Shown in pieces: positions 1,898 to 33,080 of a stretch of DNA of 37,884 nt. Under the pieces are notes generated by a model. The model was not told where the DNA came from. It was given only the letters and a program-made list of their open reading frames with translations, and searched no databases. A program made the position numbers and the translations under genes. The stretch is from the NCBI GenBank assembly GCA_029821755.1, contig JALGSV010000033.1, positions 1 to 37,884 of the forward strand, given 5' to 3'. Within the stretch, counting starts at the first letter, position 1. Each line of letters opens with the position of its first letter. The DNA is from Candidatus Zipacnadum vermilionense. GTDB taxonomy: Bacteria > Armatimonadota > Zipacnadia > Zipacnadales > Zipacnadaceae.

Positions 1898-3119
1898 GCC
1901 TTGCCCCACCCCCCTACTGGGCCGCCGGGTTGTCGTCGCCGTCAGCGGCGGCGTGGCTGCCTACAAGATCGCGGCCCTGGTCAGCCGCCTGGTTCAGGAT
2001 GGCGCCGAGGTCCGCGTGGCCATGACCGAAGCGGCGCAGCGCTTCATCGGCCCCGTCACCTTCCGCGGGCTGACCAACCGCCCGGTGGCCGTGGACATGT
2101 GGGCCGACCTGCCCGAGCCCGAGGCCTACGAGCATATCGCCCTGGCCCGCTTTGCCGAACTGCTGGTGCTGGCCCCCGCCACGGCCAATACCCTGGCCAA
2201 GCTCGCCCACGGTCTGGCCGACAACCTGGTAACCACTACCCTCCTGGCCACCCAGGCGCCGATCCTGCTGGCCCCGGCGATGAACGCCGCCATGTGGGAG
2301 AACCCCCTGACCCAGGCCAACGTGGCGCGCTTGCGGGAGGCTGGCTTCCACTTCGTCGGTCCCGAGACTGGCCGCCTGGGCTGCGGTGAGACCGGCGCCG
2401 GGCGCATGTCCGAGCCGGAGGACATCCGCGCCGTCGTTCTAGCCCTGCTTTCGCCCGAGAACGGCCCCCTGGCCGGTCGGCGCGTCCTGATTACCGCTGG
2501 CCCGACCCGCGAATGGCTCGACCCGGTGCGCTTCCTCAGCAACCCTTCTACCGGCAAGATGGGCCTGGCCCTCGCCCAGGAGGCCGCCGCCCGTGGCGCG
2601 CAGGTAACGGTCGTCCTCGGCCCCACTACTGAATCCGTCCCGCCCGGCGTAGAGGCCGTTCGCGTGGACACTGCCAAGCAGATGCGCCAAGCCGTCGCCG
2701 CGCGCCTCGCGGGAATCGACGTTTTCATCGGCGCTGCCGCGGTGGCCGATTACCGCCCGGAGGCCTCTGCCGAGCAGAAGCTGAAGAAGACCGGCGCGCC
2801 CGTGGAGGTCTCCCTCCAGCCTACGGTGGACATTATCGCCGAGGTAGCCGTGAGTCCCGACCGCCCCACGGTAGTGGTAGGGTTCGCCGCCGAATCCCAG
2901 GACCTCGAGTCCCAAGCTGCCGCCAAGCTGGAGCGTAAGGGTCTGGACCTGATCGTCGCCAACGACATCACCCAACCCGGTTCCGGCTTCGGGACCGATA
3001 CGAACGAGGTTCTCCTCCTCGACCACACGGGCAAACGGGAGCAACTCGCGCGGATGCCGAAGCGAACGGTGGCCGAGAGAATCTGGGAGCGCGTCGAGGA
3101 GTTGTTGGGGAATCGATAG
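1890..3119 (+). CDS. coaBC: Bifunctional phosphopantothenoylcysteine decarboxylase / phosphopantothenate-cysteine ligase
   Basis: Two consecutive steps of coenzyme A synthesis: CoaB couples cysteine to 4'-phosphopantothenate, and CoaC (FMN-dependent) decarboxylates the product. The 409-residue protein shows the N-terminal flavoprotein half with VSGGVAAYK, the catalytic-His segment YEHIALAR, the PAMNAAMW motif and the active-site Cys loop GCGETGAGRM. The C-terminal CoaB half starts near GRRVLITAGPTREWLDPVRFLSNPSTGKMG and carries KLKKTG and IVANDI. A strong ribosome-binding site GGAGGTGA (1876-1883) lies 6 nt before the ATG. The gene follows gmk directly. The omega subunit gene rpoZ, often found between these two, is absent. 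Confidence 0.96.
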   Translation: MAEPCPTPLLGRRVVVAVSGGVAAYKIAALVSRLVQDGAEVRVAMTEAAQRFIGPVTFRGLTNRPVAVDMWADLPEPEAYEHIALARFAELLVLAPATANTLAKLAHGLADNLVTTTLLATQAPILLAPAMNAAMWENPLTQANVARLREAGFHFVGPETGRLGCGETGAGRMSEPEDIRAVVLALLSPENGPLAGRRVLITAGPTREWLDPVRFLSNPSTGKMGLALAQEAAARGAQVTVVLGPTTESVPPGVEAVRVDTAKQMRQAVAARLAGIDVFIGAAAVADYRPEASAEQKLKKTGAPVEVSLQPTVDIIAEVAVSPDRPTVVVGFAAESQDLESQAAAKLERKGLDLIVANDITQPGSGFGTDTNEVLLLDHTGKREQLARMPKRTVAERIWERVEELLGNR

Positions 3120-3240
3120 TCAGGGACCGACCGTTACCCTCCCCGATGATAGGTTATTGATTGTCGTTTATAGATTCGCTGTGGCCGCGTACTGGCCGTA
3201 GGGGATGGGGATTGCAGCCCCTCGTGGGTCCGCTTAGCCC

Positions 3241-3265
3241 GCACCGGCGAGATGCCGGTGCCACC
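3241..3265 (-). repeat. Family B palindromic repeat (inverted orientation)
   Basis: An 8-bp perfect stem GCACCGGC/GCCGGTGC with a 5-base loop, followed by CACC, lies in the 205-nt coaBC-metK gap. The reverse complement matches the copy at 22646-22670, and partial copies occur at 14102-14164 and 36212-36230. It sits inside a larger possible stem (GCCCGC ... GCGGGC). Confidence 0.65.
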
Positions 3266-3324
3266 GGTGCAGCGGGCCAGCCCGAGGTGTGGTCCATGGG
3301 TATTCTTGCGATGGAGGTAGTATC

Positions 3325-4473
3325 TTGCCAGACAGAACGTATCTGCTTACGTCGGAATCGGTGACCGAGGGCCATCCGGACAAGGTCTGTGACCAGATTT
3401 CCGATGCAATCGTGGATTGGGTGATGAAGGATGACCCCATGGGCCGCGTGGCCGTGGAATGCTTGGTCACCACCGGCACCTGCGTGGTCGCCGGCGAGAT
3501 GTGCACGACAACTTATGTACCTGTTGATGAAGTGGCGCGCCAGACGGTCAACGACATCGGCTACACCCGCGCCAAATACGGCTTTGACTTCGAGACTATG
3601 GGGGTATTTTCCGCTATCCACGAGCAGAGCCCCGAGATCGCCCAGGGCGTCCACGTCGGCGGCGCCGGCGACCAAGGCATGATGTTCGGCTACGCCAGCA
3701 ATGAGACCCCCGAGTACATGCCCATGCCCATCGTGCTGGCCCACAAGCTGGCCGCCAAGATGGCGGAGGTGCGCAAGAACGGCACCCTCCCCTATCTGCG
3801 CCCCGACGGCAAGACCCAGGTCACCGTCCGCTATGAGGACGACCAGCCGCGCGAGGTCGTCAAGGTCCTGCTCGCCGCTCAGCACCGCCCCGGTGTAGAC
3901 CAGGAGCAGATGCGCGAGGATCTCATCCAGCATGTGGTCAACCCCATAGTCGCTGCCGACCTGCAGGCCCCGGATATGCAGGTCCTGCTCAACCGCACTG
4001 GGTCCTTCTCGGTAGGCGGTCCCCAGGCTGACACCGGTCTCACCGGTCGCAAGATCATCGTGGACACCTACGGTGGCCTGGCCCGCCACGGCGGCGGCGC
4101 CTTCAGCGGCAAGGACCCCACCAAGGTCGACCGCAGCGGCGCCTATATGATGCGCTACATCGCCAAGAACGTGGTCGCCGCCGGCCTGGCTGGCAAATGC
4201 GAGTTGCAGGTGGCCTACGCCATTGGCGACGCCGAGCCCTTCTCGGTCGCCGCCTGGACCTTCGGCACCAACCAGCTCCCCGAGGAGGAGATCTCGCGGA
4301 TCATCACCAAGGTATTCGACCTCACCCCGCACGGGATGATCGAGCACCTGGACCTGCGTCGGCCCATCTACCGCAAGACCGCTTCCTACGGTCACTTCGG
4401 CCGCAGCGATCCCGACTTCACCTGGGAGAAGCTGGACGCGGTAGACGCTATCCGCGCCGAGGCGGGGATGTAA
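3325..4473 (+). CDS. metK: S-adenosylmethionine synthase
   Basis: Makes S-adenosylmethionine from methionine and ATP, releasing phosphate and diphosphate, in the cytoplasm. Family motifs are all present: the N-terminal [12 protein letters not shown] with ATP-binding His17, [12 protein letters not shown] at about residue 113, and the phosphate loop [19 protein letters not shown] at about residue 256. The TTG at 3325 is chosen as the start. A perfect GGAGGT (3313-3318) lies 6 nt before it, and the resulting 382 residues match the usual length (about 384). An in-frame ATG at 3289 would add a non-family leader. The gene lies between coaBC and priA, an insertion relative to the common coaBC-priA order. 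No convincing SAM riboswitch was seen upstream. Confidence 0.96.
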
Positions 4474-13144: not shown

Positions 13145-14089
13145 ATGAAGGGCGTCATCTTCCCCGGGAAGGGCCTGGCAGTTCTGCAGGAGGAACCGCC
13201 CCCCACCTGCGCGCCGGACACGGTGCTGCTCAAGACCCTTTACTCCGGCCTCACCAACGGCACCGAGCGCAATGTCTTGCTGGGCGGCAACTACGGCGGC
13301 ACCTTTCCCGCCCGCTGCGGCTACCAGCTAGTCTCGCGCGTGGTGGAGGTCGGGGAACAGATTACCCAGTTCCAGGAGGGCGATGTCGTCTTCACCGGGA
13401 CTTTCTCTGGCCACGTCGAGTTCCACACCGCCCAGGAGACCGACCTGATCCTCAAGCTCCCCCCGGGCCTCGACTCCCAGGAGGCCGCCTTGCTCGGTGT
13501 CGCCTCAGTTCCCCTGCACGACCTCCGCCGGGCCTCCACTGGCGTGGAGGACAACGTCTTGGTCATGGGCGCCGGCCTCGTCGGCCAGTTTGCCGCCCAG
13601 GTTGCTCGCATACTGGGTGCCCGCGTCACCGTCGCTGACCTCGACGACCACCGTCTCTCCCTGGCCCGCTTCTTTGGCGCCGACCAGATCGCCAATACCG
13701 CCGGGGAGTCCGGCCGCGAAATATTGGACGAGCTCAAGCCCTTCTCGGTCGTAGTGGAGGTCTCCGGCGCCGACGTGCTGGACCAGATCATCGGCACCAC
13801 CTGGGGGGACGGTCTCCTCGGCCACCGCGCGCGGGTCCTGATGATCGGCGGCCGCGACCAGGTAGCCTACAATTTCAACGCCGCGCAGGACCATGAGGTA
13901 GCTGTCCTGCATGCGGGCCATTTCGACCAGAGCGACCTGGAGATCGTCGTGCACCACGTGCTCAAGGATGACCTCCGCCTGCGCCCGGCCGTCCAGAGCG
14001 TGGTCTCCATCGACGATGCCCCCCGCATTTACGAGACCCTTCGCGACGACCCAAACCGCCTGCTCGGGGTGGTTTTCGTCTGGGGATAG
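13145..14089 (+). CDS. Medium-chain dehydrogenase/reductase without zinc ligands
   Basis: A 314-residue NAD(P)-dependent oxidoreductase of the MDR fold. The GroES-like catalytic domain covers about residues 1-125. A Rossmann domain follows with VLVMGAGLVGQFAAQVARILGARVTVADLDDHR, where the acidic residues after the second strand suggest NAD. The usual catalytic Cys is replaced (SGLTNGTERN), and the GHE motif and structural four-Cys loop are missing, so it should not bind zinc. The SGxxxGTE motif recalls BchC-like members of the superfamily. It follows the ThuA-like gene by 5 nt, suggesting a joint role in sugar or polyol oxidation (inference). Substrate is unknown. Confidence 0.85.
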   Translation: MKGVIFPGKGLAVLQEEPPPTCAPDTVLLKTLYSGLTNGTERNVLLGGNYGGTFPARCGYQLVSRVVEVGEQITQFQEGDVVFTGTFSGHVEFHTAQETDLILKLPPGLDSQEAALLGVASVPLHDLRRASTGVEDNVLVMGAGLVGQFAAQVARILGARVTVADLDDHRLSLARFFGADQIANTAGESGREILDELKPFSVVVEVSGADVLDQIIGTTWGDGLLGHRARVLMIGGRDQVAYNFNAAQDHEVAVLHAGHFDQSDLEIVVHHVLKDDLRLRPAVQSVVSIDDAPRIYETLRDDPNRLLGVVFVWG

Positions 14090-14101
14090 GCCCTCTCTCC
14101 C

Positions 14102-14164
14102 GGTGGCACCGGCGTCCGCTGCGGCAGGCTCGGCGCCCCGAGCGGAGCCGAGGGGTCGCCGGTG
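14102..14164 (+). repeat. Family B repeat with expanded centre
   Basis: GGTGGCACCGGCGTC and GTCGCCGGTGC, the two arms of family B, are here separated by about 37 bases that themselves form a GC stem (GGCTCGGCGCCCCGAGC). Seen directly; likely an elaborated copy. Confidence 0.55.
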
Positions 14165-14169
14165 CTCCC

Positions 14170-14243
14170 CGTGGCGCGGGCTTTCTAGCCCGCGTCCGAT
14201 AAATCATGCGGCCCGGAGGGCGGGCTAGAAAGCCCGCCCCACG
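14170..14243. repeat. Family C MITE-like inverted-repeat element, intergenic copy
   Basis: Two arms of about 25 bp in inverted orientation, CGTGGCGCGGGCTTTCTAGC and GCGGGCTAGAAAGCCCGCC plus CCACG, flank a 25-base centre. Each arm is also palindromic around CTAG. Total 74 bp. A second copy of 75 bp lies inside the next gene at 14896-14970. The remaining gap to 14326 holds nothing recognisable. Confidence 0.7.
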
Positions 14244-14326
14244 CGGAGGCGACGTCCGGAACACCTCCCTCGTACCGCGTCCCGCCGCTTGCCCTGCGCT
14301 GCCCAATCCAGATAGTCAACGAACTC

Positions 14327-16561
14327 ATGACCCGCTCCCGACCCCTCATACCGCTGCTCGTGCTCGCCGCCACCTCCGTCCTCTTCTGGTGGCCCTGCCT
14401 GCTCGGCGGCAAGGTCCCCGTCACCGCCGTCTACCAGCAGCAGATGTCCCCCTTCGGTGCGCCGCAGTCACCCCCGCCTCGCGCCTGGGACGCCCTGCTC
14501 TGGGACTCTATGGCCCAGTTCTACCCCTGGCGCGTCCTGCTCCAGCGTGGCCTACGCAGCGGCGAGCTTCCCCTTTGGAACCCGCACCAGTACTGCGGCT
14601 ACCCCTTCGTCGGCAACGGCCAGTCCGCCCTCTTCTACCCACCCAACTGGCTGCTGCTCATCGTCGACGCCAAGTACTTCCTCGGCCTCAGCCTCGCTCT
14701 GCACTGGTTTCTGGCCGGGGTACTGACCTTCTTCCTCGCGCGCACCCTCCGCCTGCGCCCCGCCGCCGCCCTGGTCGCCGGCCTCCTCTACCAGTCTAGC
14801 GGCTTCATGATCGCTTGGGCGGAACTCCCCACGGTGGTCAACACGATGGCCTGGCTCCCCGGCGCCTGGCTGGGCGTAGAGTTGCTCTTCCGTTCGCGTG
14901 GCACGGGCTTTCTATCCCGCGCTCCCCGGCGGCAACCGGAACCGGGCGGGCTAGAAAGCCCGCCCCACGCCGGCCTCGCCCTCCTCTCCACCTCCCTCGG
15001 CCTTTCCCTCCTCGCCGGGCACCTCCAATTCGCCGCCTATGTCTGGCTCACCACCGCCCTCTACGCCCTCGCCCGCGCCACCTACCGTTGGGCCACCCGC
15101 CGTCCGGCTCCTGTCGCTCCTCTTGTCCTGTCCGTCCTCCTCGGCCTCGGGATCGGCCTCCCCCAGGTCCTCCCCTCCTTGGAGCTGGGCCGCTACTCCC
15201 CCCGCGGCGAGACGAAAGTCTCCGCCGAGGGCTGGCGCTTCCAGCAGCGGCGCGCCCTACAGCCTATCGAGCTGCTCACCTTCGCCTGGCCCGAGGCCCT
15301 CGGCGACCCGGTGACTGGTACCTACCCCGGTATTAGCTACACCGAGCACTGCGGCTACGCCGGCGTCCTCGCTCTGATCCTGGCCGCTCTCGGCGTAGCC
15401 CTCCGCCGCGACCGCTGGGCCATCTTCTACGCCCTGGGCACCGTCGCCGCCGTCGCCATAGCTATGGCCGGCCCGCTTGCCTGGCTGCTCTACTACGGTC
15501 TCCCCAAGCTCGGGCTCGCTGGCGGCTTTGCCCGTATCCTCGGCGTCTACACGCTCTTGCTCGCTGTCCTAGCGGGCATGGGTCTCGACGCTCTCCTCGC
15601 CGCGCTCACCCACCGCAGCCGACCCGCTCCCCCGGAGGGGCCGCATGGGTGGCTCGCGGCGTCGTCTGCCGCGAGACGGGCCCCATCCGGCCCCGGCCAC
15701 CGCGAACCGATCACCGGCAAGCCCTCCTCCCTCCCCACCCTCGTCGCCGGGGTCACCCTCTTCCTCATCGCCGCCGAGCTTTTCCTCTGGGGCTGGCGCT
15801 TCCTCCCTCTCGCTCCCCAGGAGCAGGTCTACCCCGACACCGCCCTTACCCGTCTCCTCACGGAGAAATCCGCCGACCCCAACTACCGCGTCCTGTGCAT
15901 CACCCCGCGCAACAACTGGACCATCGACCGGCTCCCTAACGCCCTCCTCCCGCCCAACGCTGCCACGGTCTACGGATGGTACAGCCCACAGGGATATGAC
16001 TCCCTCTCACTGGCGACGTACCGGGCCTGGATAGAGCGGGGAGAGCGAGCCGATGTGTCGCCGCTGACGAACGGCAACATGATGCTCTTGAACCGCGCGG
16101 ACTCGGCGGAACTCAACCTCGCGGCGGTCAAGTGGCTCGCCACACTGGCGCCGCTAACCGCGCCGAGCCTCCGGCTGCAGCGTCTGGAAAGCGGAGCATA
16201 CCTCTACGAGCGGGGCGGGCTCGGCTACAGTCTGGTCCACACCTTCCCCCGCGAGGGTTCAGCCCTTCTCGTCGGCCGCAGCCTCAACACCCTCACGGTG
16301 GAGACCACCGACGATGCTACCTACCTGCGTGTCGCGCAGCCGTGGTATCCCGGCTGGCGCGCCTACACCGACGGCCGCCTGTCCCAGCGCGGCCCTCAAG
16401 CGGATGGCTCTCTCCTGGCAGTGCCGATTTCCCCGGGCACCCACGACCTCTGGCTCGCCTTCTACCCCGCCTCTCTCGTCGTCGGCCTCTTCCTCGGCCT
16501 CCTCAGTCTCGCCCTTCTCGCCGGCCTTCTCACCGCCACCCGCAGGAGCCTCCGCCGATGA
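14327..16561 (+). CDS. YfhO-family polytopic membrane protein
   Basis: A 744-residue integral membrane protein of the YfhO type (GT-C-like fold). The N-terminal helix LIPLLVLAATSVLFWWPCLL is followed by the family pattern DALLWDSMAQFYPWRVLLQRGLRSGELPLWNPHQYCGYPFVGNGQSALFYPPNW. About ten hydrophobic segments follow, then a soluble C-terminal beta domain (VETTDDATYLRVAQPWYPGWRAYTDGR) and a last helix. Family members are implicated in glycosylating lipids or cell-envelope polymers. Two palindromic elements are translated in frame, at about residues 190-215 and 437-456. Both map to hydrophilic loops between helices. It overlaps the next membrane-protein gene by 4 nt (ATGA). No ribosome-binding site is apparent. 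Confidence 0.88.
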   Translation: MTRSRPLIPLLVLAATSVLFWWPCLLGGKVPVTAVYQQQMSPFGAPQSPPPRAWDALLWDSMAQFYPWRVLLQRGLRSGELPLWNPHQYCGYPFVGNGQSALFYPPNWLLLIVDAKYFLGLSLALHWFLAGVLTFFLARTLRLRPAAALVAGLLYQSSGFMIAWAELPTVVNTMAWLPGAWLGVELLFRSRGTGFLSRAPRRQPEPGGLESPPHAGLALLSTSLGLSLLAGHLQFAAYVWLTTALYALARATYRWATRRPAPVAPLVLSVLLGLGIGLPQVLPSLELGRYSPRGETKVSAEGWRFQQRRALQPIELLTFAWPEALGDPVTGTYPGISYTEHCGYAGVLALILAALGVALRRDRWAIFYALGTVAAVAIAMAGPLAWLLYYGLPKLGLAGGFARILGVYTLLLAVLAGMGLDALLAALTHRSRPAPPEGPHGWLAASSAARRAPSGPGHREPITGKPSSLPTLVAGVTLFLIAAELFLWGWRFLPLAPQEQVYPDTALTRLLTEKSADPNYRVLCITPRNNWTIDRLPNALLPPNAATVYGWYSPQGYDSLSLATYRAWIERGERADVSPLTNGNMMLLNRADSAELNLAAVKWLATLAPLTAPSLRLQRLESGAYLYERGGLGYSLVHTFPREGSALLVGRSLNTLTVETTDDATYLRVAQPWYPGWRAYTDGRLSQRGPQADGSLLAVPISPGTHDLWLAFYPASLVVGLFLGLLSLALLAGLLTATRRSLRR
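14896..14970. repeat. Family C MITE-like element inserted in frame in the YfhO gene
   Basis: A 75-bp copy with arms GCGTGGCACGGGCTTTCTAT and GCGGGCTAGAAAGCCCGCC plus CCACGC around a short centre. Its length is exactly 25 codons, so the reading frame survives. Encodes RGTGFLSRAPRRQPEPGG and neighbours in a loop. Confidence 0.75.
15637..15694. repeat. Imperfect palindrome in the YfhO gene
   Basis: CTCGCGGC and GCCGCGAG form an 8-bp inner stem. Outer arms GGGGCCGCATGGG and CCCCATCCGGCCCC extend it imperfectly to about 58 bp. It encodes a Gly/Pro/Ala/Arg-rich loop that does not resemble YfhO sequence, so it is probably another inserted repeat type. Confidence 0.5.
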
Positions 16562-18357
16562 GCCGCCCCGATACCTCTCACCGTTCTCCCAGCCCGCCCC
16601 CTCAGAACCCCCTCTCCTGCAAGGAGAGGGGGCAGGGGGTGAGGCTCCCTGTCCTCCTCGCCGCCCTCGGCGTCATGCTCCTCACCTGCGTCCCCTACCT
16701 GATCGCCTCCCTTCCCGGCTTCGCCGGTCCCGGCCAGCACTTCCAGGGCCTGCTCTGGGGTGTTGACGACGGCAACGTCTACCGCTCCTATATCCGCCAG
16801 CACGCAAGCGGCCATTTCTTCGCCTTCAATCAGTACAGCACCGAACCCCAGAATCCGCACTTCGTCAACCTACTCTTCCTCGGCATGGGCCTGGTCTGCC
16901 GTCTCACTGGCGCGTCTTCGGTCCTCGTCTACCACCTCTTCCGCGTCGCCGGCGGAGTGATCTTGCTCTACCTGATCTATCTACTCGCCGCCGAGATCGG
17001 TCTCGGCCGCCGCGGCCGCTGGGCCGCCTTCCTACTCGCTTCCTTCTCCTCCGGACTGGGCTGGGTCATCTACCGCGGCGTCACCGAGGGCACTATCTCG
17101 CCCGCGACCGGTACCCGTCTCGCCCCTCTGGACGTCGCCTTCGGCTGGGTGGCTATGCCCGAGGCCGTCACCTTCCTCTCCCTGCTGACCAACGCCCTCT
17201 TCGTCACCGGCCTGGCGCTCATGGCCGCCATCGTCCTCTGGGGCCTCCGCGCCGCCCGCGAGCCCGGCTGGCACGCCACCTTGATCACCGGTGCCCTCCT
17301 CCTCCTGCTGGGCAATGTCCACTCCTACGACGTGGTCGTGCTCTACGCCCTGCTTGGCGTTCTCTTCCTCGCGCGTGCGTTCACCCGCACCCTCCCCTGG
17401 CCCCAGGCCCTCGCCCGCTACGCCGTTCTGGGGCTCATGGGCCTCCCCACCCTCGCCTGGCAGTACTATGTCCAGTCGGTTGACGCCATCTGGGCCGCCA
17501 AGTACCTCATCCCCAAGACCTCCCCGCCGCTGAGCGGCTACCTGCTCGGCTACGGCCTCCCGCTCCTCGTCGCCGTGATTGGCGCGGTTCTCGCCGTCCA
17601 CCACCGCCGCGCTTTCTCTGCCTCCGAGCCGGACCAGCCCCGCCTGCCCAGCGCCCTCCTCCCGGTCGTCTGGCTGGTGCTCGGCTTCGCCCTGGTCTAC
17701 GCCCCGCTCAACTTCCAGCGCAAGCTCGCCGAGGGCCTCCACCTCCCTCTCTGCCTCCTCGCCGCCCTGGCCCTGGAGCAACTCAGCCGTCGCTTGACCG
17801 CCTCTTCCTACCGCGCGGTCTTCGCCCTCTTCCTGGTCGTCGCCCTGCCCTCCAATCTCTACTACGTCGCCGACGGCCTGGCCCACGCCCGCGTCAATAA
17901 CCTCGACCTCGCGCCCGTCAACTACCCGCCCGCCTACCTCACCACCGACGAAATGGCCGCCCTCCGCTGGCTGGGCGCGAACACCTCCCGGCAGGACGTC
18001 GTCCTCTCCTCGGTCTACACCGGCAACCACGTCCCCCCGAGCGCCCCCTGCCGTGTTGTTGCCGGCCACTGGGACGAGACCGTGCACTTCGGCAAGTATC
18101 TGGCGCTCACTCAGCGCTTCTACGCTCCCCTTACCCCGCCCGAGGTCCGCCGTTATACCCTAACCCAGTCCGGCGCCAACCTCATCGTCTACGGCCCCCA
18201 GGAGCGCCTCCTGCAGCGACTGCTCACCGCCCTCGACCCCGGCGGGATGAGAACCGCCGACCTCACCGAGAATCTGCCCGAACTACGCCCGGCCTTCCAC
18301 CAGGGCGAGGTAACTATCTACCGCGTCCAGGGCGCGGTCGTCCCTCCGGTCGGCTGA
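16558..18357 (+). CDS. GT-C-like polytopic membrane protein
   Basis: A 599-residue membrane protein with about a dozen hydrophobic helices. The first luminal loop carries acidic DDGNVYRSYIRQHASGHFF followed by FNQYSTEPQNPHFVNLLFLGMGLV. A soluble tail (from about residue 505) contains LTTDEMAALRWLGANTSRQDVVLSS and LIVYGPQERLL. This layout is that of dolichyl-phosphate-mannose-type or DUF2298-like glycosyltransferases; the donor and acceptor are unknown. The ATG at 16558 is chosen because it overlaps the preceding stop by 4 nt and gives a sensible N-terminus. Residues 17-30 (NPLSCKERGQGVRL) come from a family A repeat lying just before the first helix. It probably acts with the upstream YfhO-type protein in envelope glycan assembly (inference). 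Confidence 0.82.
   Translation: MSRPDTSHRSPSPPPQNPLSCKERGQGVRLPVLLAALGVMLLTCVPYLIASLPGFAGPGQHFQGLLWGVDDGNVYRSYIRQHASGHFFAFNQYSTEPQNPHFVNLLFLGMGLVCRLTGASSVLVYHLFRVAGGVILLYLIYLLAAEIGLGRRGRWAAFLLASFSSGLGWVIYRGVTEGTISPATGTRLAPLDVAFGWVAMPEAVTFLSLLTNALFVTGLALMAAIVLWGLRAAREPGWHATLITGALLLLLGNVHSYDVVVLYALLGVLFLARAFTRTLPWPQALARYAVLGLMGLPTLAWQYYVQSVDAIWAAKYLIPKTSPPLSGYLLGYGLPLLVAVIGAVLAVHHRRAFSASEPDQPRLPSALLPVVWLVLGFALVYAPLNFQRKLAEGLHLPLCLLAALALEQLSRRLTASSYRAVFALFLVVALPSNLYYVADGLAHARVNNLDLAPVNYPPAYLTTDEMAALRWLGANTSRQDVVLSSVYTGNHVPPSAPCRVVAGHWDETVHFGKYLALTQRFYAPLTPPEVRRYTLTQSGANLIVYGPQERLLQRLLTALDPGGMRTADLTENLPELRPAFHQGEVTIYRVQGAVVPPVG
16608..16647 (+). repeat. Family A palindromic repeat inside the GT-C-like gene
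   Basis: A complete copy: CCCCCTCTCCT, loop GCA, AGGAGAGGGGG, then CAGGGGGTGAGGCTC. It is translated in frame as NPLSCKERGQGVRL. Confidence 0.85.
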
Positions 18358-24555: not shown

Positions 24556-27500
24556 TCATCTCTGCACGTTCACCTGCGTGACCGCCTGCACCCGCTGGCC
24601 GGTGTCAACGACGGCTTGGACTCGCACCAGATAAGTGCCCGAGGGCACCGCCGAGCCGCTCTCGGCCCGCAGGTTCCACCTCTGGGTATTGACTCCGGCG
24701 GCCACCACATTGCCTCTGCTCAGCCGCCGTATGACGCGCCCCGCGACGTTAAGCACCTCGACTGACACCTGGCACGACGAACTCACGCTGTAGGTGACGA
24801 CCACGGTCGTGCCGGCCTGCTGCGCCGAGGCCGCGGTGATTACCAGGTTGTCGGTTCCACGTGGCGCCACCTCCAGCCGGAAGTGCCGCACCGCGCCCGC
24901 CGCGCCGGTCCGGAAGGTGTACTGCGGGGTCGTCCGCATGTACACGCTTCGCCCGCCGTCCTCATCCACCAGCGTCACCGACAGGTCGTTCGGCACCTGC
25001 GACAGGTCGGGTAGGCCGATAGTGACCTCGGTCTTGGCCAGATCCGTGGCGACCACGAACTCCCACGACTGGGGACCCGCGCCCGCCGGCTTGAGCTGCT
25101 GGGCCAGTGCGTTGCCGGCCTCGTCCACGAAGTACAGGTCCACACTCCCGGGCATGGTCGGCGGATTGGCGACCTCGTAGGCGCCCTCAGAGCGCACCCC
25201 GGCCGCGCTGCACAGGTCCGCCCGGTTTCCGGCCCGCGCCGTCACCGGGATCACGTAGCCGCCCTCGCCGAGCGCCAGGCTCTGCGGTTCGACCTGTTCC
25301 GCGGCGCTGGCCACGGCCGGCGCCATCGCGGAGATCGAGGTGACGCCCACCAGGCTCCGGATCCAAGCGCCCTCCCACGGTCTCACGAACGTCCGGGCCA
25401 CGTTTATCCCCGGCATGCTGGCCACGAACAGGTAGCTGCCGGTGTCGTGGTCATAGACGAATACGTACGGATCGGTCCCGTTGGCGATAGCCGGCCGCAG
25501 ATTGGCTACAGGCAGGTCCACCGGGAACGGATTGCCCATCATGTTCCACGTCGGCCCCAGGGAGATCGCGAAGGGCGCCGTAGTGGATACCGACATGCCG
25601 GATCCAGTCAGAGTGTACGGCGCGGGGTAAGACACGAAGTAACCCTTGCCCGGCCGCACGTCCAGCACACTCGCAGCCCCCGCATCGCCCGGTCCCATGT
25701 ACCCCGGAGGCGAAGCCATCGGGCTCCACCGCCGAACCGCGGCGGTCCCGAATACGGTAGTCACTGTGCGGTCCAGCGGATCGAACGGCACTCCTACCAT
25801 GCTGATGCCCGCGGGGAAAGTAGTGGCGAAGGCCCGGTAGGCCGTGAAGTCCAGCGAAGTCGCGGTCGGCACCGTCGCCGTCCGGTTGGTGGGCACGAAG
25901 GCCCAATCGGTGCTCGTGGGGGTGACCGTTACGTCCCCCGGTAGCAGCCCGCTGATGTCGTACCGTCCCTGCGCATTGGTGGTAGCGGTATGCGTACCGT
26001 CACTGACCTGCACGCCCGGTACCGGGTTGCCCACTGAGTCGAGAATGAAGCCACTGACGCTGTAGGTCATCGGCGCGGCTACGAAATCCACACCGTTCAC
26101 CGAAGCGTCACTGACCACCACCCGCCGATTGCCCGGGGTGAAGCTGAAGAACTCCAAGCCCGGCACTACCGTATAGGTCCCGTTCGCTACGCCTAGCAGC
26201 GAGTAGCGCCCGTCTGCCCCGGTAGTGGCGGTGACCACTCCATTGGTCACCGCTACGCCCGGCTTGCCCGAACCATCCCCCATCATCACCCGCCCATTGA
26301 TGGCGAACAGCGTGGTGAAGGTCCAGTCGAACGTGGGCATGGCGTTGCCCGCTCGGTCACTGGCGTCGACCCGTAGCGTGGTGAGAACCCCCGCGGGCAG
26401 CCCGCCTGCCGGTCCGTACGTCACGACGACGTCGTTGAGGTCCGCCGAGTTGATCTGCAGGTCCGCCGCCGGCACTTGCACCCCGTTGACTCGCAGCTCG
26501 ATGCTGCTCACGTCCACGCCCGAGACATCATCTCTTACGTGGAAGCTGATCGGGTTGCCCGGCGACACCCCTGTCGCCCCCTGAGGCGGTGACAGGTCGG
26601 TCACCCGCGGCGGGGTCACGTCGGCGACGGTCCAGAAGCGCCAGGTCTGGTCGCTCTGATTGGCCAGTGTATCCCGCGACACCACCCGCACCCGAACCAC
26701 CTGGTTCCAGACGAACGCGCCCTGGTAGGTGATCGTGACGGTGTTCGGTGTCCCCGTCGCCGGCTGCATGGTGGCCCTGCTGGTCACGTCCCTGCTGCGG
26801 ACGAACACCTGGATACTGCTCAGGTCAATGCCGGACGGGTCCGTCAGATCAAACGAGATGCTCGAACCCAGCGGCACTTCTGTCGCGTTCGGCACCGGCG
26901 ACTCGTTCACCGCGTCCGGCCCATTTGCGTCTATCGTCATCGCCGACTTGGACTGGACATTCTTGTTCTCGTTCGGTATCTCATCGAAGCCCGTTACGGC
27001 CGCATAGTAGGTGGTCTGGGTCTGTAGGCCTGTGACCTCGTAGGAGGTAACCGTCGGCCCTAACGTGGCCACCGGCGTCATTCCCACTACCGTCGTGAAT
27101 GCCGTGTCGGACAGCCAGACGTGGTACCCGGCGATGTCATCGGGCGCCGGGTAGGTTCCCCAGTCCAGCAGGATGCTAGTGCCCTGCGTCCCGCTTTGTA
27201 CCGTCAGGAAGGGCCGCACCGACGGCGGCGCCGTGCTGTCCACAATCAGGACCTCTGCCGACGAGACATCCGGGCTCGGGCTGCTTGCCATATCCGGATC
27301 GTCATACGTAGCCGTCACCGTTATGCCCGTCGGCCCCGGCTGCACATTCAGCTCTCCGTCGTTGGAGGCCCCCGACTTGCCCACGGTCGGTAGCGCCTGA
27401 CGGAACACGCCCAGCACGGGATCGAAGGAGTTGAGCGTTACCGTCTCGCTCTCCCCGACCAAGGACACGGTCACCTCCACCGACGGCTCACCGGCCTTGT

Positions 27501-30500
27501 CGGGATCGGTGACCTGCAGGTAGAGCGTGGAGCCCTCCTCCGCCTGAGTAATCTGCGTCCAGGTGCTATCGTTGATCGTCAACGTCGAGGGGTCGTCCAC
27601 CCACGGTCCCACCGAGGCCGCGGACTCCCCATCCGGCCAGGACACGGCCCCGGTATAGAAGCGATACTCATGCTCCCCGTAGCCCAGCGCCGTGGAATCC
27701 CCACGCAGGTCGATGTAGTAGGTCACACCCGCCACGTAGTCGTTGTCGGCCGGGTTGAGCTTGCTCAGTTGCGTCGGGTGCAGATTGCCGTCAATCTCCA
27801 CGTACACGCCGCTCACCGGCGCTATGTTGTCGACGTTCGAGTAGACGATGGAGTAGCGGAAGATCGTGCTCAGGTCCCCGACCAGCGGGGTGAGCGTCTG
27901 CGTCGGATCGCCGTTCGGCGGGGCCAGCACGCCCGGAGCCCGGTTCAGGTCTACCATGAACTCCTGCACGCCGCTCCATTCCGACAGCGCCCCCAGCGTA
28001 TCCTCGCTCTTCACCCGCCACGACCAAAGGGTCAGATCGACTAGCGCGTCGGTCACCGTGACCTGGTTGCTCGTGTTCGTGTACTGGAAGTCATACGCCC
28101 CACCGGCGAAGCCGTCCTTGCTGAGCTGGATGGTGTAGCGCACCACCCGGTCCCCTGGGTCGGGATCCTTCGCCGGATTCCAGCGCAGCACCGGGTTGGC
28201 CACGCTCACGATTTCCCGTTGCGACGGGGAGAACCCGGTCTCCGGCGGGAATGGCGGATGGTTCACAATTACCACCGGCCCCGGCGCCGGTTCGCCAGTG
28301 CTGACCGCCGGGCCGAACCAGTCGTTCGCGGTTGCCCCGCCGGCGGCCCAGATGCTGCCGTCGTTGGCCTGCACCCGAATCCAGTGCTGTCCCGGTGGGC
28401 GAGATACCGTACGGGCGGTTTGGTACTCCACGCCCGCCACGTAGTTGCCGTCCGTCGCCGTGACCTTGACCATGTCGAAGACGGCGTCCGGACTGTCTGC
28501 CGGCTGCGTCAATGACGAGTACAGCCCCACTCGGATGGACCCCGGGGGCGTGTTGTCCGGGTCCCTATACGTCGCGAAGATCAGGAATTCCGTCGCCGGC
28601 GTCCCGTCGAAGGTGACGCTCGGGTCGGGGTGATACCCGCCCGACAAACCCTGGTCCGGCGAATAGGCGTCAAAGACCCGGAAGGTATCTCCCAGCACCA
28701 CCCGGTCGGCCACCAGGTCGCCCGTGCCACTCACCTTATGCACGGTCATGGTGCTCGTGGTGTTGGCATCGATCTCATACACCCGCAACTTCGCCAGCCC
28801 CGTGCGGAACTGTAGGAACTTCCCGACCAGACTACCGTCCTCGTAGGCCGTCCGCCCCAGCGGCCGGATGTAGTCCAGGTGGGTCTCGTCGATCACTCTG
28901 ATCAGCGTATCCGCCGCCGGTGGCGTGAAGTAGATCGCGCTCATCTTCGGCGCGCGGTTGCCGATCACCAGCGGCCCCTCGTAGTAGCTGTTGGGGCTGG
29001 ACGGTAGCCGGGTCATCTCCCCCTCGACCTTCAAGTCGGTCGGGGTCGAGCCAGCACTCATGAAGTACTGCTCCCAGTTGACCCAGTACGCCCAGTTGTC
29101 CCAGAACTCAAAGTAGTAGTTGTGTAGGCCCGGATCCAGTTGCACCCCGGCCCGCGCCGTATCGAACACGAAGTCGGCCCCGTCGAAGTAGTTGGTGTCG
29201 CCCGCCACAGCCGGGTCCATGGTAGCGCCAAACCAATCTACCACCTGGAACCTGTCCCCCACCTGGATCCCGGCGGGCAGAGCCCCGCTGACGGTGATGG
29301 TCCCCTGACCCGCACCCACGGTGTTGCCGGTGATGACCAGTTCCTGTGAGGAGACAGCTCCCGTCTGGAAATGCACCTTCATGGCCGGCCTGCCTGCCGG
29401 GTTGAAGGCGCCCACCGGGTAGGGACTGCCGCCCCCGGCGGGGACCGGCGTCAGAAACTCGTAGGTGATAGTGCTGCCCGCCAGGCTCTTGACCTGCATC
29501 TGCCCCTGCACATCGCCGAACAGGTCGATCCAGATGAGAGCCTTGAAGGGCCGGTCGCCCTGCGGGTTGGCGTCCCGCACCATCCCGTCCTTGTCCGTGT
29601 ACCGGGTCTTGAACACGAAGTCCTGCCCCTGCGTACCCGAGGCCGGCGTAAGCCCTTGGTTGTCCAGCACCGGCTTGTTGTTCACCCGGAACCAGTAGTA
29701 GTTGTTAGCGCCGGGCGGGACCCCCAAGTACCCCGGGTCGTCGTTCGGCCGGGAGGGGTAGATCGCGGTGCCAGTGCCGTCGCTGAAGGAGAAGTAGTAC
29801 TGGTAGTCGCCGGCGCCGCCCCCGCCGGGGAGAGAAACCGCGGCCGCCTGGTAGTAGTACACGCAGCCGTCGGTGTAGTTCGTGTCCGCCGGGTAGACCT
29901 TCTGCATACTGAACCCCTGCCAGCCCGTCGTCGGCGTCCCCGACGCATCGGTCTTGCGGATGAAGACCTGGGTCGCCTGAGGCGCCGTATTGTCGGACTG
30001 CCAGTAGTTGATGCGGAACACGAAATTGGTGTCGGTGGTCCACTTGCCGCCTCGATAGGCCGAGCGCTGGCTAATGTCCGGATTGTAGGCCACCGTCTCG
30101 TTGGAGATATTCGCATAGTTGGGCGAGATTGTATCCTCGTTGGTGAAGCGATGCGAGGACAGGCCGTTGGTGCTGTAGCCACCCAGGCCCGCGCCGATAT
30201 TGGCGGTCGGTCCCGCCACCGGCTCCCAGGGCTCGCCCGTGTCCGCCAAGGGGTTGAAGGGATTGGGCCGGGTTCCCCCCACCGCGGGGCCCAGCGCGTT
30301 CAGATACTGCCCCGGCGTGGGGAAGCCCCGCTCGACCGCGTTCAGCGGTCCCTCTTCGAAGTACGGATGCGCCGTCAACACGGGGTTAACCTTGGGGTAA
30401 GTCAGGCTGCTGAAGGGATACCCATAGCCACCCGCTTCCAAGTCTCGCTGCCAGGGCCACTCGCCACCAATTGCCTTGATGTACCTGCGATTGCTGTTGG

Positions 30501-32859
30501 TGGGTCCGTCGTTGACCATGACCTTCGTAGTCAGCGCGTCGCCGGGCCTGCCCTGCAGCACGACGCACATGGGGCCCACCCGTTGCGTACCGGTGGAGTC
30601 ATTCAGCTCCCAGATAGGCGGATCCCAGTCCCGACAGGTCAGGAATTGATAGCTATGGGAGCCGGCGCGCATCGCCGCGTACGCGTTGGAGGTCGGCCTC
30701 CCGACCAATCCCGAGAAAGCCGTGTCCCAAGTATCTTGGCCGAGGGGGTCGTACGCGAAGAGAAACGCGTTGTGCAGCATCTGCAGGTAGTTGGTCGGTG
30801 CGATGTCATACTTGTAGATCACGCCTGTCCGCAGAGTGCCGTTATCCGGCTCCATGTAGTAGGGCCGGTCCACCGCCTCATCGATCACGAGAACGGCGTG
30901 GGGATCGCTGCCGCCCGCCCCCGCGTCCCCCGTCAGGTCCAGGTGGGGGTCCTGTTGGCTGCCATACATCCAGGCCCTTTCGGCGCTGTCACCGGCGACC
31001 GATTTGTTGTCGTGGTCCACGATGCCGTTCTTGATGACATCGTAGCTAAAGAAGTTGAAATCCACGAAGTTGCCGTTCTCTCCGAATTCCGAAGTGGGCG
31101 TGGCGTAGCTTTGCCAGGCGCTACGCAGTTCGGGCCAGCCCGACAGCCCACTGAAGTACTTGAGCCGGAAGGTGTAAGCATCGCCGCCCGCTCCGTTGTC
31201 CGGTTCCGTCGCGGCCCCCGTCACGGCGCGAGTAACCGACAGCGGGTCGACGCCGGTGGCTTGGCCCGAGTACCAGGCTTGCATCTCCCCGCTGGCCGAG
31301 ATGAAATTGCCGACAGCACTGTGCAGGGCCAGCGGCACGGTGGTCTGAGTGCCCGTCCAAATGATGGGAGGCTGCCCCTGATAGTAGCCCCCTGCTGGAT
31401 ACTCCTCATCGCTCACCCAACTGCTCCAAAACATGGTGAACCTGAAGGTCGAGCTCCCCCCAGGAACGGTACCGACCAGCCAGTCTGAGTGGAATCCAGA
31501 GAACGGGCCTACGGTAATCCAGGAAAACAGTCCGGAGGGGCTCCAGGAGACGCCAAAATGCTGCGGCAAATCGTTGGCGTGGACCGCATCAAAGAGTTGG
31601 GCGGGATCCATGACGTGCGCTTGATCCTGTATCTCGAAGAGGTCGCGCAGGTGGAAATGATCGGCGGCGGCCAGTCCCGCCGGGAGATCCTCGATCGTGG
31701 TCACGAAGGTGCCGCCGCCGTCCTGGCCGTTGCTGTCCACCGTCAGGACGGTGTTGGCGGCGAGGCCGTCGGTGATCTCCAGGGTCAGAACGTCCAGCGA
31801 ACCGGCGGCGTACACGTTGCCGGTGTAGTAGATCTTCTTGGCCGCGGTCGCGGTTACCGTCAGTTGCTTGAGCAGAGTCAGCGGCAGCGGGGTAGTCGTT
31901 GTAATCCACGTGGCGCCGCTAGCCAAGTCGGTGCCATTGCCCAGGATCCGTATAGTTTGAGAAGCCGTAGGGGCTGTGAGGAACTTCATGCGTTGACCGG
32001 CCAGGGAACCGGGCCCAAAGGCACCGCCGATGTAGTAGAACTTGGTGGTGGTCGGAATCGACACTACCGTGCGAATCGGCAAGAGGCCGAAGGGCAGGTC
32101 ATCATCGGTATCGATAAAGTAGCCGGTGGCATCGCTGCTGTTCGACTCGATGAGGAAGTTCTGCCCGGCGGCCACCCCTCGGGTGAACCGCAAGGTCTCC
32201 CCAAACAAGGAACCCGTCAGATATTGCGCCAAAGTGACAACGCCCTCATAGTAGACAAGGTCGGGGGCGGGGTTCGCATAAATGTCCAGGTTAGCGCAGA
32301 CGCGGGCGTCCAGGGCTGTGGCCAAGGTGATGTAGGTGCCGATGGTGTCAGAGTCGTTGGTGAGCACGGTGTATGGCCCGAACTGGCCCAGCGGGTTGTT
32401 GACTACGAGGTCGTAGGCGCCGAGAGCCCCCGGGGCAAACGGCTGCCAAGAGACGAAGTAGATCTTCTTGCGGTCAGGGCTCGGATTATACAAGCGGATG
32501 TTCCATGTGCCGGTGGCGACAGCGCGGCCGGCCGTCCACATGCCACCGGCCAGGGTCAGGGCTTTGCTGTAGGAAGCGCCGCTGGGGGCGGCCGGTTTGG
32601 TGCTGTAGCTGACTCCGCTCAGAAACAGGCCGTCCACACGCTCCTGGGGGACGCCGTCGTCGTTGATCTCATAGTCCCACTCCGGTTTGGCCCGGAACCA
32701 GCGTTGGGAGTTGGCCGTCGCTTCCCTCGGCCATACGCCCTCTCCACCGTAGCCGACTATAAGGTCCGCCGCTTGGACCGAGGGCAGCAGCAAGGTGGCG
32801 GTGAGAGCAACGAGGACAGTGAGAAGGGCAACACTGCGGAAGGGGATTCGGGTCTTCAT
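24556..32859 (-). CDS. Giant modular exported surface protein (about 2767 residues)
   Basis: A very large secreted beta-rich protein with signal peptide RSVALLTVLVALTATLLLPSVQA. The ATG at 32859 is chosen because GGAGG (32867-32871) sits 7 nt upstream; an in-frame ATG at 32904 lacks this. Modules by residue: three tandem copies of a ~55-residue LxFxTG...LPxGL...GDxFxV-type unit (about 215-405), and a unique Trp/Tyr-rich region (about 420-930). Four DxDN/YYF surface-type repeats follow (about 944-1750), with two further LxFxTG units nested at about 1154-1208 and 1341-1396. Then come fibronectin-like (1531-1650, 1875-1975) and Ig-like (1978-2180) domains, two carboxypeptidase-regulatory-like domains (2185-2340) and a FlgD/sorting-like C-terminus (2670-2767, ending SGTYLVRVQAVVDTGQ). 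Function is unknown; adhesion or glycan binding is inference. Confidence 0.9.
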   Translation of the reverse strand: MKTRIPFRSVALLTVLVALTATLLLPSVQAADLIVGYGGEGVWPREATANSQRWFRAKPEWDYEINDDGVPQERVDGLFLSGVSYSTKPAAPSGASYSKALTLAGGMWTAGRAVATGTWNIRLYNPSPDRKKIYFVSWQPFAPGALGAYDLVVNNPLGQFGPYTVLTNDSDTIGTYITLATALDARVCANLDIYANPAPDLVYYEGVVTLAQYLTGSLFGETLRFTRGVAAGQNFLIESNSSDATGYFIDTDDDLPFGLLPIRTVVSIPTTTKFYYIGGAFGPGSLAGQRMKFLTAPTASQTIRILGNGTDLASGATWITTTTPLPLTLLKQLTVTATAAKKIYYTGNVYAAGSLDVLTLEITDGLAANTVLTVDSNGQDGGGTFVTTIEDLPAGLAAADHFHLRDLFEIQDQAHVMDPAQLFDAVHANDLPQHFGVSWSPSGLFSWITVGPFSGFHSDWLVGTVPGGSSTFRFTMFWSSWVSDEEYPAGGYYQGQPPIIWTGTQTTVPLALHSAVGNFISASGEMQAWYSGQATGVDPLSVTRAVTGAATEPDNGAGGDAYTFRLKYFSGLSGWPELRSAWQSYATPTSEFGENGNFVDFNFFSYDVIKNGIVDHDNKSVAGDSAERAWMYGSQQDPHLDLTGDAGAGGSDPHAVLVIDEAVDRPYYMEPDNGTLRTGVIYKYDIAPTNYLQMLHNAFLFAYDPLGQDTWDTAFSGLVGRPTSNAYAAMRAGSHSYQFLTCRDWDPPIWELNDSTGTQRVGPMCVVLQGRPGDALTTKVMVNDGPTNSNRRYIKAIGGEWPWQRDLEAGGYGYPFSSLTYPKVNPVLTAHPYFEEGPLNAVERGFPTPGQYLNALGPAVGGTRPNPFNPLADTGEPWEPVAGPTANIGAGLGGYSTNGLSSHRFTNEDTISPNYANISNETVAYNPDISQRSAYRGGKWTTDTNFVFRINYWQSDNTAPQATQVFIRKTDASGTPTTGWQGFSMQKVYPADTNYTDGCVYYYQAAAVSLPGGGGAGDYQYYFSFSDGTGTAIYPSRPNDDPGYLGVPPGANNYYWFRVNNKPVLDNQGLTPASGTQGQDFVFKTRYTDKDGMVRDANPQGDRPFKALIWIDLFGDVQGQMQVKSLAGSTITYEFLTPVPAGGGSPYPVGAFNPAGRPAMKVHFQTGAVSSQELVITGNTVGAGQGTITVSGALPAGIQVGDRFQVVDWFGATMDPAVAGDTNYFDGADFVFDTARAGVQLDPGLHNYYFEFWDNWAYWVNWEQYFMSAGSTPTDLKVEGEMTRLPSSPNSYYEGPLVIGNRAPKMSAIYFTPPAADTLIRVIDETHLDYIRPLGRTAYEDGSLVGKFLQFRTGLAKLRVYEIDANTTSTMTVHKVSGTGDLVADRVVLGDTFRVFDAYSPDQGLSGGYHPDPSVTFDGTPATEFLIFATYRDPDNTPPGSIRVGLYSSLTQPADSPDAVFDMVKVTATDGNYVAGVEYQTARTVSRPPGQHWIRVQANDGSIWAAGGATANDWFGPAVSTGEPAPGPVVIVNHPPFPPETGFSPSQREIVSVANPVLRWNPAKDPDPGDRVVRYTIQLSKDGFAGGAYDFQYTNTSNQVTVTDALVDLTLWSWRVKSEDTLGALSEWSGVQEFMVDLNRAPGVLAPPNGDPTQTLTPLVGDLSTIFRYSIVYSNVDNIAPVSGVYVEIDGNLHPTQLSKLNPADNDYVAGVTYYIDLRGDSTALGYGEHEYRFYTGAVSWPDGESAASVGPWVDDPSTLTINDSTWTQITQAEEGSTLYLQVTDPDKAGEPSVEVTVSLVGESETVTLNSFDPVLGVFRQALPTVGKSGASNDGELNVQPGPTGITVTATYDDPDMASSPSPDVSSAEVLIVDSTAPPSVRPFLTVQSGTQGTSILLDWGTYPAPDDIAGYHVWLSDTAFTTVVGMTPVATLGPTVTSYEVTGLQTQTTYYAAVTGFDEIPNENKNVQSKSAMTIDANGPDAVNESPVPNATEVPLGSSISFDLTDPSGIDLSSIQVFVRSRDVTSRATMQPATGTPNTVTITYQGAFVWNQVVRVRVVSRDTLANQSDQTWRFWTVADVTPPRVTDLSPPQGATGVSPGNPISFHVRDDVSGVDVSSIELRVNGVQVPAADLQINSADLNDVVVTYGPAGGLPAGVLTTLRVDASDRAGNAMPTFDWTFTTLFAINGRVMMGDGSGKPGVAVTNGVVTATTGADGRYSLLGVANGTYTVVPGLEFFSFTPGNRRVVVSDASVNGVDFVAAPMTYSVSGFILDSVGNPVPGVQVSDGTHTATTNAQGRYDISGLLPGDVTVTPTSTDWAFVPTNRTATVPTATSLDFTAYRAFATTFPAGISMVGVPFDPLDRTVTTVFGTAAVRRWSPMASPPGYMGPGDAGAASVLDVRPGKGYFVSYPAPYTLTGSGMSVSTTAPFAISLGPTWNMMGNPFPVDLPVANLRPAIANGTDPYVFVYDHDTGSYLFVASMPGINVARTFVRPWEGAWIRSLVGVTSISAMAPAVASAAEQVEPQSLALGEGGYVIPVTARAGNRADLCSAAGVRSEGAYEVANPPTMPGSVDLYFVDEAGNALAQQLKPAGAGPQSWEFVVATDLAKTEVTIGLPDLSQVPNDLSVTLVDEDGGRSVYMRTTPQYTFRTGAAGAVRHFRLEVAPRGTDNLVITAASAQQAGTTVVVTYSVSSSCQVSVEVLNVAGRVIRRLSRGNVVAAGVNTQRWNLRAESGSAVPSGTYLVRVQAVVDTGQRVQAVTQVNVQR

Positions 32860-33080
32860 CTGAGTTCCTCCGAGCGCTAGGTTGACGGCGGTTGCATTGG
32901 TCATATTGCCGGATGGAGACCGGGCCTGGACCCGGCCCGCCCGAGAGGTCCGACATGCGCCCTCCCGGGCAACGACACCAGGCCCTGCCCCCAGCGAGGG
33001 GGCGGCTCGACAAGCCTCTTTCCTCCCTGGCGCCGCACACCCCGAACGGCCCGTCCCCGGGCAGGGAGAACACAGGGTAC
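32860..33080 (-). promoter_or_regulatory. Long GC-rich 5' leader of the giant gene
   Basis: About 220 nt lie between the predicted transcription start and the ATG. Several GC stems are visible (for example CCGGG-CCTGGA-CCCGG near 32930-32945). I could not match it to a known riboswitch class, and no gene is supported here. Confidence 0.35.

Follow-up and report, generated by a model that had tools for sequence, protein, structure and literature searches.

A phage hub-type beta-barrel module, in tandem and nested, in a giant exported protein of an uncultured Armatimonadota bacterium

Results

A giant exported protein with a module array and nested modules

The window (the whole stretch of DNA analysed, 37,884 nucleotides) is a single contig of a 4.39 Mb MAG from Zipacnadia/WS1 (Armatimonadota), an uncultured sediment bacterium whose close relatives are named Candidatus Zipacnadia or candidate division WS1, phylum Armatimonadota (PMC10290634). 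Its main feature is one very large gene, with a distinct region at its C-terminal end:

24556..32904, minus strand: giant exported protein, 2782 aa (2767 counted from Met16)
24559..25845, minus strand: C-terminal region, residues 2354-2782, ending in FlgD_ig; candidate surface sorting/anchor region

From its N-terminus, the protein consists of a signal peptide, an N-terminal domain with a module array and an unassigned stretch (residues 460-940), followed by Ig-like repeats in which modules are nested, fn3/Big_5, two CarboxypepD_reg domains and, at the C-terminal end, FlgD_ig. A Pfam scan of the protein placed all the fn3, Big_5, carboxypeptidase-regulatory and FlgD_ig domains in the C-terminal half and returned zero matches in the N-terminal half. 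The C-terminal ~430 residues, a candidate region for surface sorting or anchoring, are common to five other large proteins (contigs C38 and C86), and a sixth (contig C43) has part of them; FlgD_ig matches in the genome number 25. The neighbouring genes serve ordinary housekeeping and membrane functions (FtsW, RelA/SpoT, PriA and others), and no phage genes were recognised among them. Elsewhere in the window, positions 14001-18000 show strong GC and AT skew over two large ORFs, which match YfhO and, weakly, DUF6541 membrane proteins.

Six copies of one module

The first-pass annotation, whose residue numbers begin at Met16 of the 2782-residue ORF, had described five copies of a ~55-residue unit in this protein, three of them in tandem near the N-terminus. 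All five segments were found where it had placed them, but its total was too low, since a sixth copy (c0, at residues 147-212) precedes the tandem three; the protein thus contains six copies, four in a tandem array and two nested in Ig-like repeats. The unit is also longer than had been proposed, ~65-75 residues once the first strand (xxFYY / xxITYEF) is included.

32269..32466, minus strand: module copy c0, residues 147-212; AF2 pLDDT about 84-93 over most of it
32056..32256, minus strand: module copy c1, residues 217-283
31852..32043, minus strand: module copy c2, residues 288-351
31621..31836, minus strand: module copy c3, residues 357-428
29227..29508, minus strand: module copy c4, core 1163-1226, preceded by hairpin strands that start at about 1133
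28663..28917, minus strand: module copy c5, residues 1330-1414, nested behind the next Ig-like repeat's first strand

The five segments first described align with one another: in leave-one-out HMM searches, c1, c2, c3 and c5 scored far higher than any of 300 shuffled proteins and c4 was borderline (5.7 bits versus 4.3 for the best of the shuffled proteins), and all pairwise Smith-Waterman comparisons among c1-c5 outscored at least 498 of 500 shuffles. Because each copy scores 43-62 bits once ortholog copies join the HMM, c4 is secure. Copy c0 is weak alone (1.2 bits in the leave-one-out HMM); the c0-c3 similarity was matched by none of 500 shuffles, orthologous copies of c0 are present in six relatives, and it is backed by an in-register DNA repeat. 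Identity between copies falls to 25-46%, with N as the sole near-invariant residue. Examination of the DNA repeats revealed neither transposon-like ends nor a mobile-element DNA signature, and a genome-wide search identified the giant protein as the only module carrier in this genome.

AF2 models of residues 46-560 and 1070-1560 had mean pLDDT values of 78.5 and 81.6, respectively, and within them the modules mostly reached 75-93, with about five strands each. Each copy is predicted to be a self-contained five-stranded beta-barrel.

Two modules interrupt Ig-like domains

In the Ig-like repeat that holds c4, the WIDLFG strand precedes the module and the TM..DTNY strand follows it; the domains that host c4 and c5 are the following:

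29050..29679, minus strand: host Ig-like domain of c4, about residues 1076-1285
28261..28959, minus strand: host Ig-like domain of c5, about residues 1316-1548

The c4 host matches the N-terminal domain of TVA I, which is contiguous there (residues 4-123) and interrupted here. The c5 host superposes on xanthanase 6fhn 817-920 (Z 13.4, rmsd 1.7 A, 103 residues), and spans 233 residues here versus the 103 aligned. Both modules are thus nested in their hosts, Ig domains whose folds run unbroken in solved structures and are interrupted in this protein. With an Ig HMM made from empty-site relatives, the c4 host appeared as two pieces in the presence of the module and as a single continuous domain once the module was excised, in agreement with the first-pass observation of a repeat whose IWIDLFG and DTNYFDG parts are separated by a copy; likewise, the first-strand piece of the c5 host joined the remainder upon excision. 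The module is not a variant of the repeats that harbour it: its HHalign probability to the host Ig repeats, themselves Ig-like, was only 0.1%.

Four insertion sites across the ortholog family

Among orthologs drawn from 61 genomes plus genome contigs, modules occupy four separate sites. The first is that of the tandem array:

31621..32466, minus strand: insertion site 1, four-module array in the N-terminal region, between AAPSG..Y and HFGV..TVGPF

Site 1 contains three copies in L022, L028, L029 and L030, four in the window protein and L021, and five in L031, and is a short connector only in L023, L024, L026, L027 and the order-level proteins. In a tree built on the array-free core protein, every array-bearer fell within one clade (97/98), of which L023, sister to a bearer (100/100), is the sole array-less member. 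This pattern needs a minimum of two changes and would most simply reflect one gain and one loss, the latter in L023. Copies 4 and 5 of L031 share 82% DNA identity, a degree of likeness that marks them as a recent tandem duplication. The core tree also groups array-bearers of three genera together, apart from the array-less proteins of the same genera; because genera are mixed in this way, whole-gene paralogy or transfer is likely.

Site 2 (c4) is filled in most orthologs, including the phylum-level L046. Site 3 (c5) is filled in most family members and in L035, is empty in every other sampled outer family, and is empty in ten order-level orthologs, in which the sequence runs straight through (NTPPVLSNFRFTPDAA..DGTTATAF). 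Site 4, a linker between Ig repeats before GPKVAANTPP, is filled only in the order-level family f6 (clearly in L042 and L043, and by alignment only in L039).

More widely, a sample of 251 genomes of the phylum included 51 with the module, and the c4-type Ig loop is used repeatedly in other Armatimonadota giants; it is an insertion hotspot in L074 and L075. These two Armatimonadota giants (L074, L075; G097) have 4 and 7 module hits, several of them in c4's Ig-repeat loop.

Kinship with the barrel of phage and GTA hubs

No single module reached a Pfam or NCBIfam curated cut-off, and to that extent the first-pass view that this is no named domain was correct; its kinship with part of TIGR02597, and with the hub domains PF09356/TIGR02218, is nonetheless recognisable. 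The TIGR02597 part (TIGR02597 being an NCBIfam paralog family) is the closest named match, found at E <= 0.1 for 19 of the 48 module copies (best 9.6e-6); its scores, over about 50-100 positions, peaked at 24.8 bits for single modules and at 24.2 bits in genomes, against a cut-off of 50 bits. PF09356 matched four of the 48 copies (best E 0.0044) and phrog_778 (tail assembly protein) three; the cut-offs of PF09356 (22.9 bits) and TIGR02218 (80.5 bits, best seen 14.2 bits) were unmet. PHROGs scans with single copies gave nothing below E 0.1, a tblastn search of phages and plasmids with one module gave nothing useful, and paper searches on TIGR02597 and BR0599 turned up nothing about the module. 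A VDAC match in a PDB hmmsearch with the module profile (E 0.01) was judged a chance hit with wrongly placed segments. Foldseek, run on a 515-residue multi-domain model, returned meaningless whole-chain alignments (DSIF etc., TM about 0.06), unlike VIA and BFVD, which resolved single modules.

The top structure match of the array model in VIA was the Rhodobacter GTA hub 6tba_7A (Z 11.1, 97 residues, 3.0 A), followed by the hub of phage R4C (8gtc_P, Z 10.7); the hubs of Chi (8vjh_D, 8.8) and JBD30 (8rk3_O, 8.0) were also among the top hits. These same four entries are independently selected in the PDB by a BR0599 hub-domain HMM derived from phages. EF-Tu domain II-type barrels also matched the array model, below the top hubs, and since their Z of 7-8 indicates that the barrel shape is common, homology could not be established from the fold by itself. 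When profiles of the modules and of the hub domains were compared, HHalign gave a probability of 94.6%, compared with at most 6.5% for 100 column-shuffled versions and 0.6% for a reversed control. Because the viral rows had been recovered with an artificial consensus query, which biases them towards resemblance to the module, the comparison was repeated without one viral hub sequence found with a module-like query, and the probability was 94.2%. In BFVD, an uncultured Caudovirales tail protein matched at 1.8 A over 78 columns. The beta-barrel ('oligosaccharide-binding') domain of phage/GTA baseplate hubs of the BR0599 type is thus a homologue of the module, whose likeness to phage modules, noted in the first-pass annotation, is now traced by profiles and structure alike to tail-tip hub domains.

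Proteins of viral contigs that carry the module include a hub, an esterase and a baseplate wedge protein of gp8 type, and Pseudanabaena phage Pam2 (L073, ON014754) has several tandem-like copies within one protein. The wedge protein, of T4 gp8 type, lies at 2257-4347 of viral contig L063 and has the module mid-protein. The multi-module Pam2 protein is annotated as a 'flagellar hook-length control protein' and many BR0599 hub proteins in phage records as 'FAD/FMN-containing dehydrogenase', both of which are likely misannotations. The hub family PF09356 was not found in the 61 relatives searched, so that no resident GTA or prophage source was seen.

Discussion

These data make it highly probable that an autonomous hub-type barrel has been inserted into surface loops at four sites across the orthologs and, at one of these, gave rise to a tandem array. 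The filled and empty orthologous sites, together with the nesting revealed by fold comparison, support the original proposal that the module spreads within the protein by entering permissive loops. Mechanistically, a barrel whose N- and C-termini are adjacent, as is presumed here, could be accepted in a loop with the host fold undisturbed, and unequal recombination, the putative route, would amplify the module in such loops. Tolerance of the barrel in loops would explain both tandem growth and nesting.

As to function, the modules most likely serve as small decorating domains on a filament or layer at the cell surface, acting either in binding, possibly of glycans, or as spacers. Sugar binding may be suggested by the name of the hub domain, a label that is itself based on structural similarity (PMC7296036; PMC10276861). 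That the modules are instead pure length spacers or stabilisers without a ligand is a serious alternative, to which we give slightly less than an even chance: tandem copy number varies freely, and the copies, at 25-46% identity, hold nothing invariant beyond the nearly invariant N, but the nested c4 and c5 add side lobes, not length. A broader scheme, in which phage tail tips and giant surface proteins of bacteria exchange one barrel family that recognises cell-surface glycans and enters loops in both, is tentative and on balance unlikely.

The distribution of filled sites could also stem from loss rather than gain, starting from an ancestral protein with modules at all sites that were later deleted in different lineages. 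Loss does occur, as L023 dropped its array within an array-bearing clade, and c4 is old, given its presence in most orthologs; yet site 1 is filled in one supported clade only (97/98) and site 4 in family f6 only, and at site 3, which among the sampled outer families is filled in L035 alone, ten clean deletions, each restoring a contiguous Ig domain, would be less economical than one insertion. We therefore regard general loss as improbable. Least probable of all is convergence of module and hub on a common small beta-barrel with a G-x-x-L..TG..GQ..I..N..I.V rhythm, for although the module is short and EF-Tu domain II and other barrels also match (Z 6-8), hub domains outrank all other barrels by structure, the independent profile match (94%) far exceeds the 100 column-shuffled controls (<=6.5%), and intermediate sequences exist in phage and viral contig proteins.

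Insertion of a hub-type barrel, the reading we prefer, turns this family into a natural record of domain spread inside one protein, with filled and empty sites, an array that grew in tandem, a single loss and a duplicate of recent date. It also connects modules that lack annotation in giant surface proteins of bacteria with a tail-tip domain of phages and GTAs. Since no Pfam cut-off catches the domain, one new profile could annotate many such proteins, and would also let the 'oligosaccharide-binding' label be tested.

Comparison with known systems

TIGR02597 shares the ITANT..GDxFxI core of the module, within positions 81-130 covered by the matches inspected, but most of its 363-position model is without a match to the module. 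The beta-barrel insertion domain of the LKA1 gp49 tailspike, likened here by description, is likewise small and breaks up a host fold; the GTA study compares its hub domain with this barrel (PMC7296036), and the LKA1 paper calls its in vitro role unclear. Tandem TGAGQ modules in Pseudanabaena phage Pam2 gp66 and viral contig L061 are also arrayed in tandem and gave an HHalign probability of 96.9% with the module, a value biased by rows found with a module-like query; unlike the module described here, they sit in phage proteins.

Closest in kind is the hub barrel of RcGTA, R4C, Chi and JBD30 (PF09356 Phage_BR0599, TIGR02218, phrog_778), which resembles the module in sequence rhythm and barrel fold and, like it, is inserted inside another domain. 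Hub residues 168-249 have been called an oligosaccharide-binding domain, located between two halves of an ion-binding domain (PMC7296036; PMC10276861), and in the GTA and R4C hubs the barrel is described as lying within the iron-sulfur domain, with one segment of that domain on either side; horizontal transfer is put forward by the R4C authors as a possible origin of the oligosaccharide-binding domain (PMC10276861). BR0599-type hubs have a GCDK..TC iron-sulfur segment and a PF09931 attachment domain, and the module protein is without both: the Cys-containing GCDK..TC..KF segment is absent from the sequence after all six module copies, and the Pfam scan found no PF09931 match in the giant protein, whereas hub L064 has PF09931. 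The module further differs from the hub barrel in its tandem and multi-site copies and in its residence in a bacterial surface protein. The domain thus belongs to a known phage-type family and is not categorically new; its novelty lies in its setting and in the insertion record that it has left.
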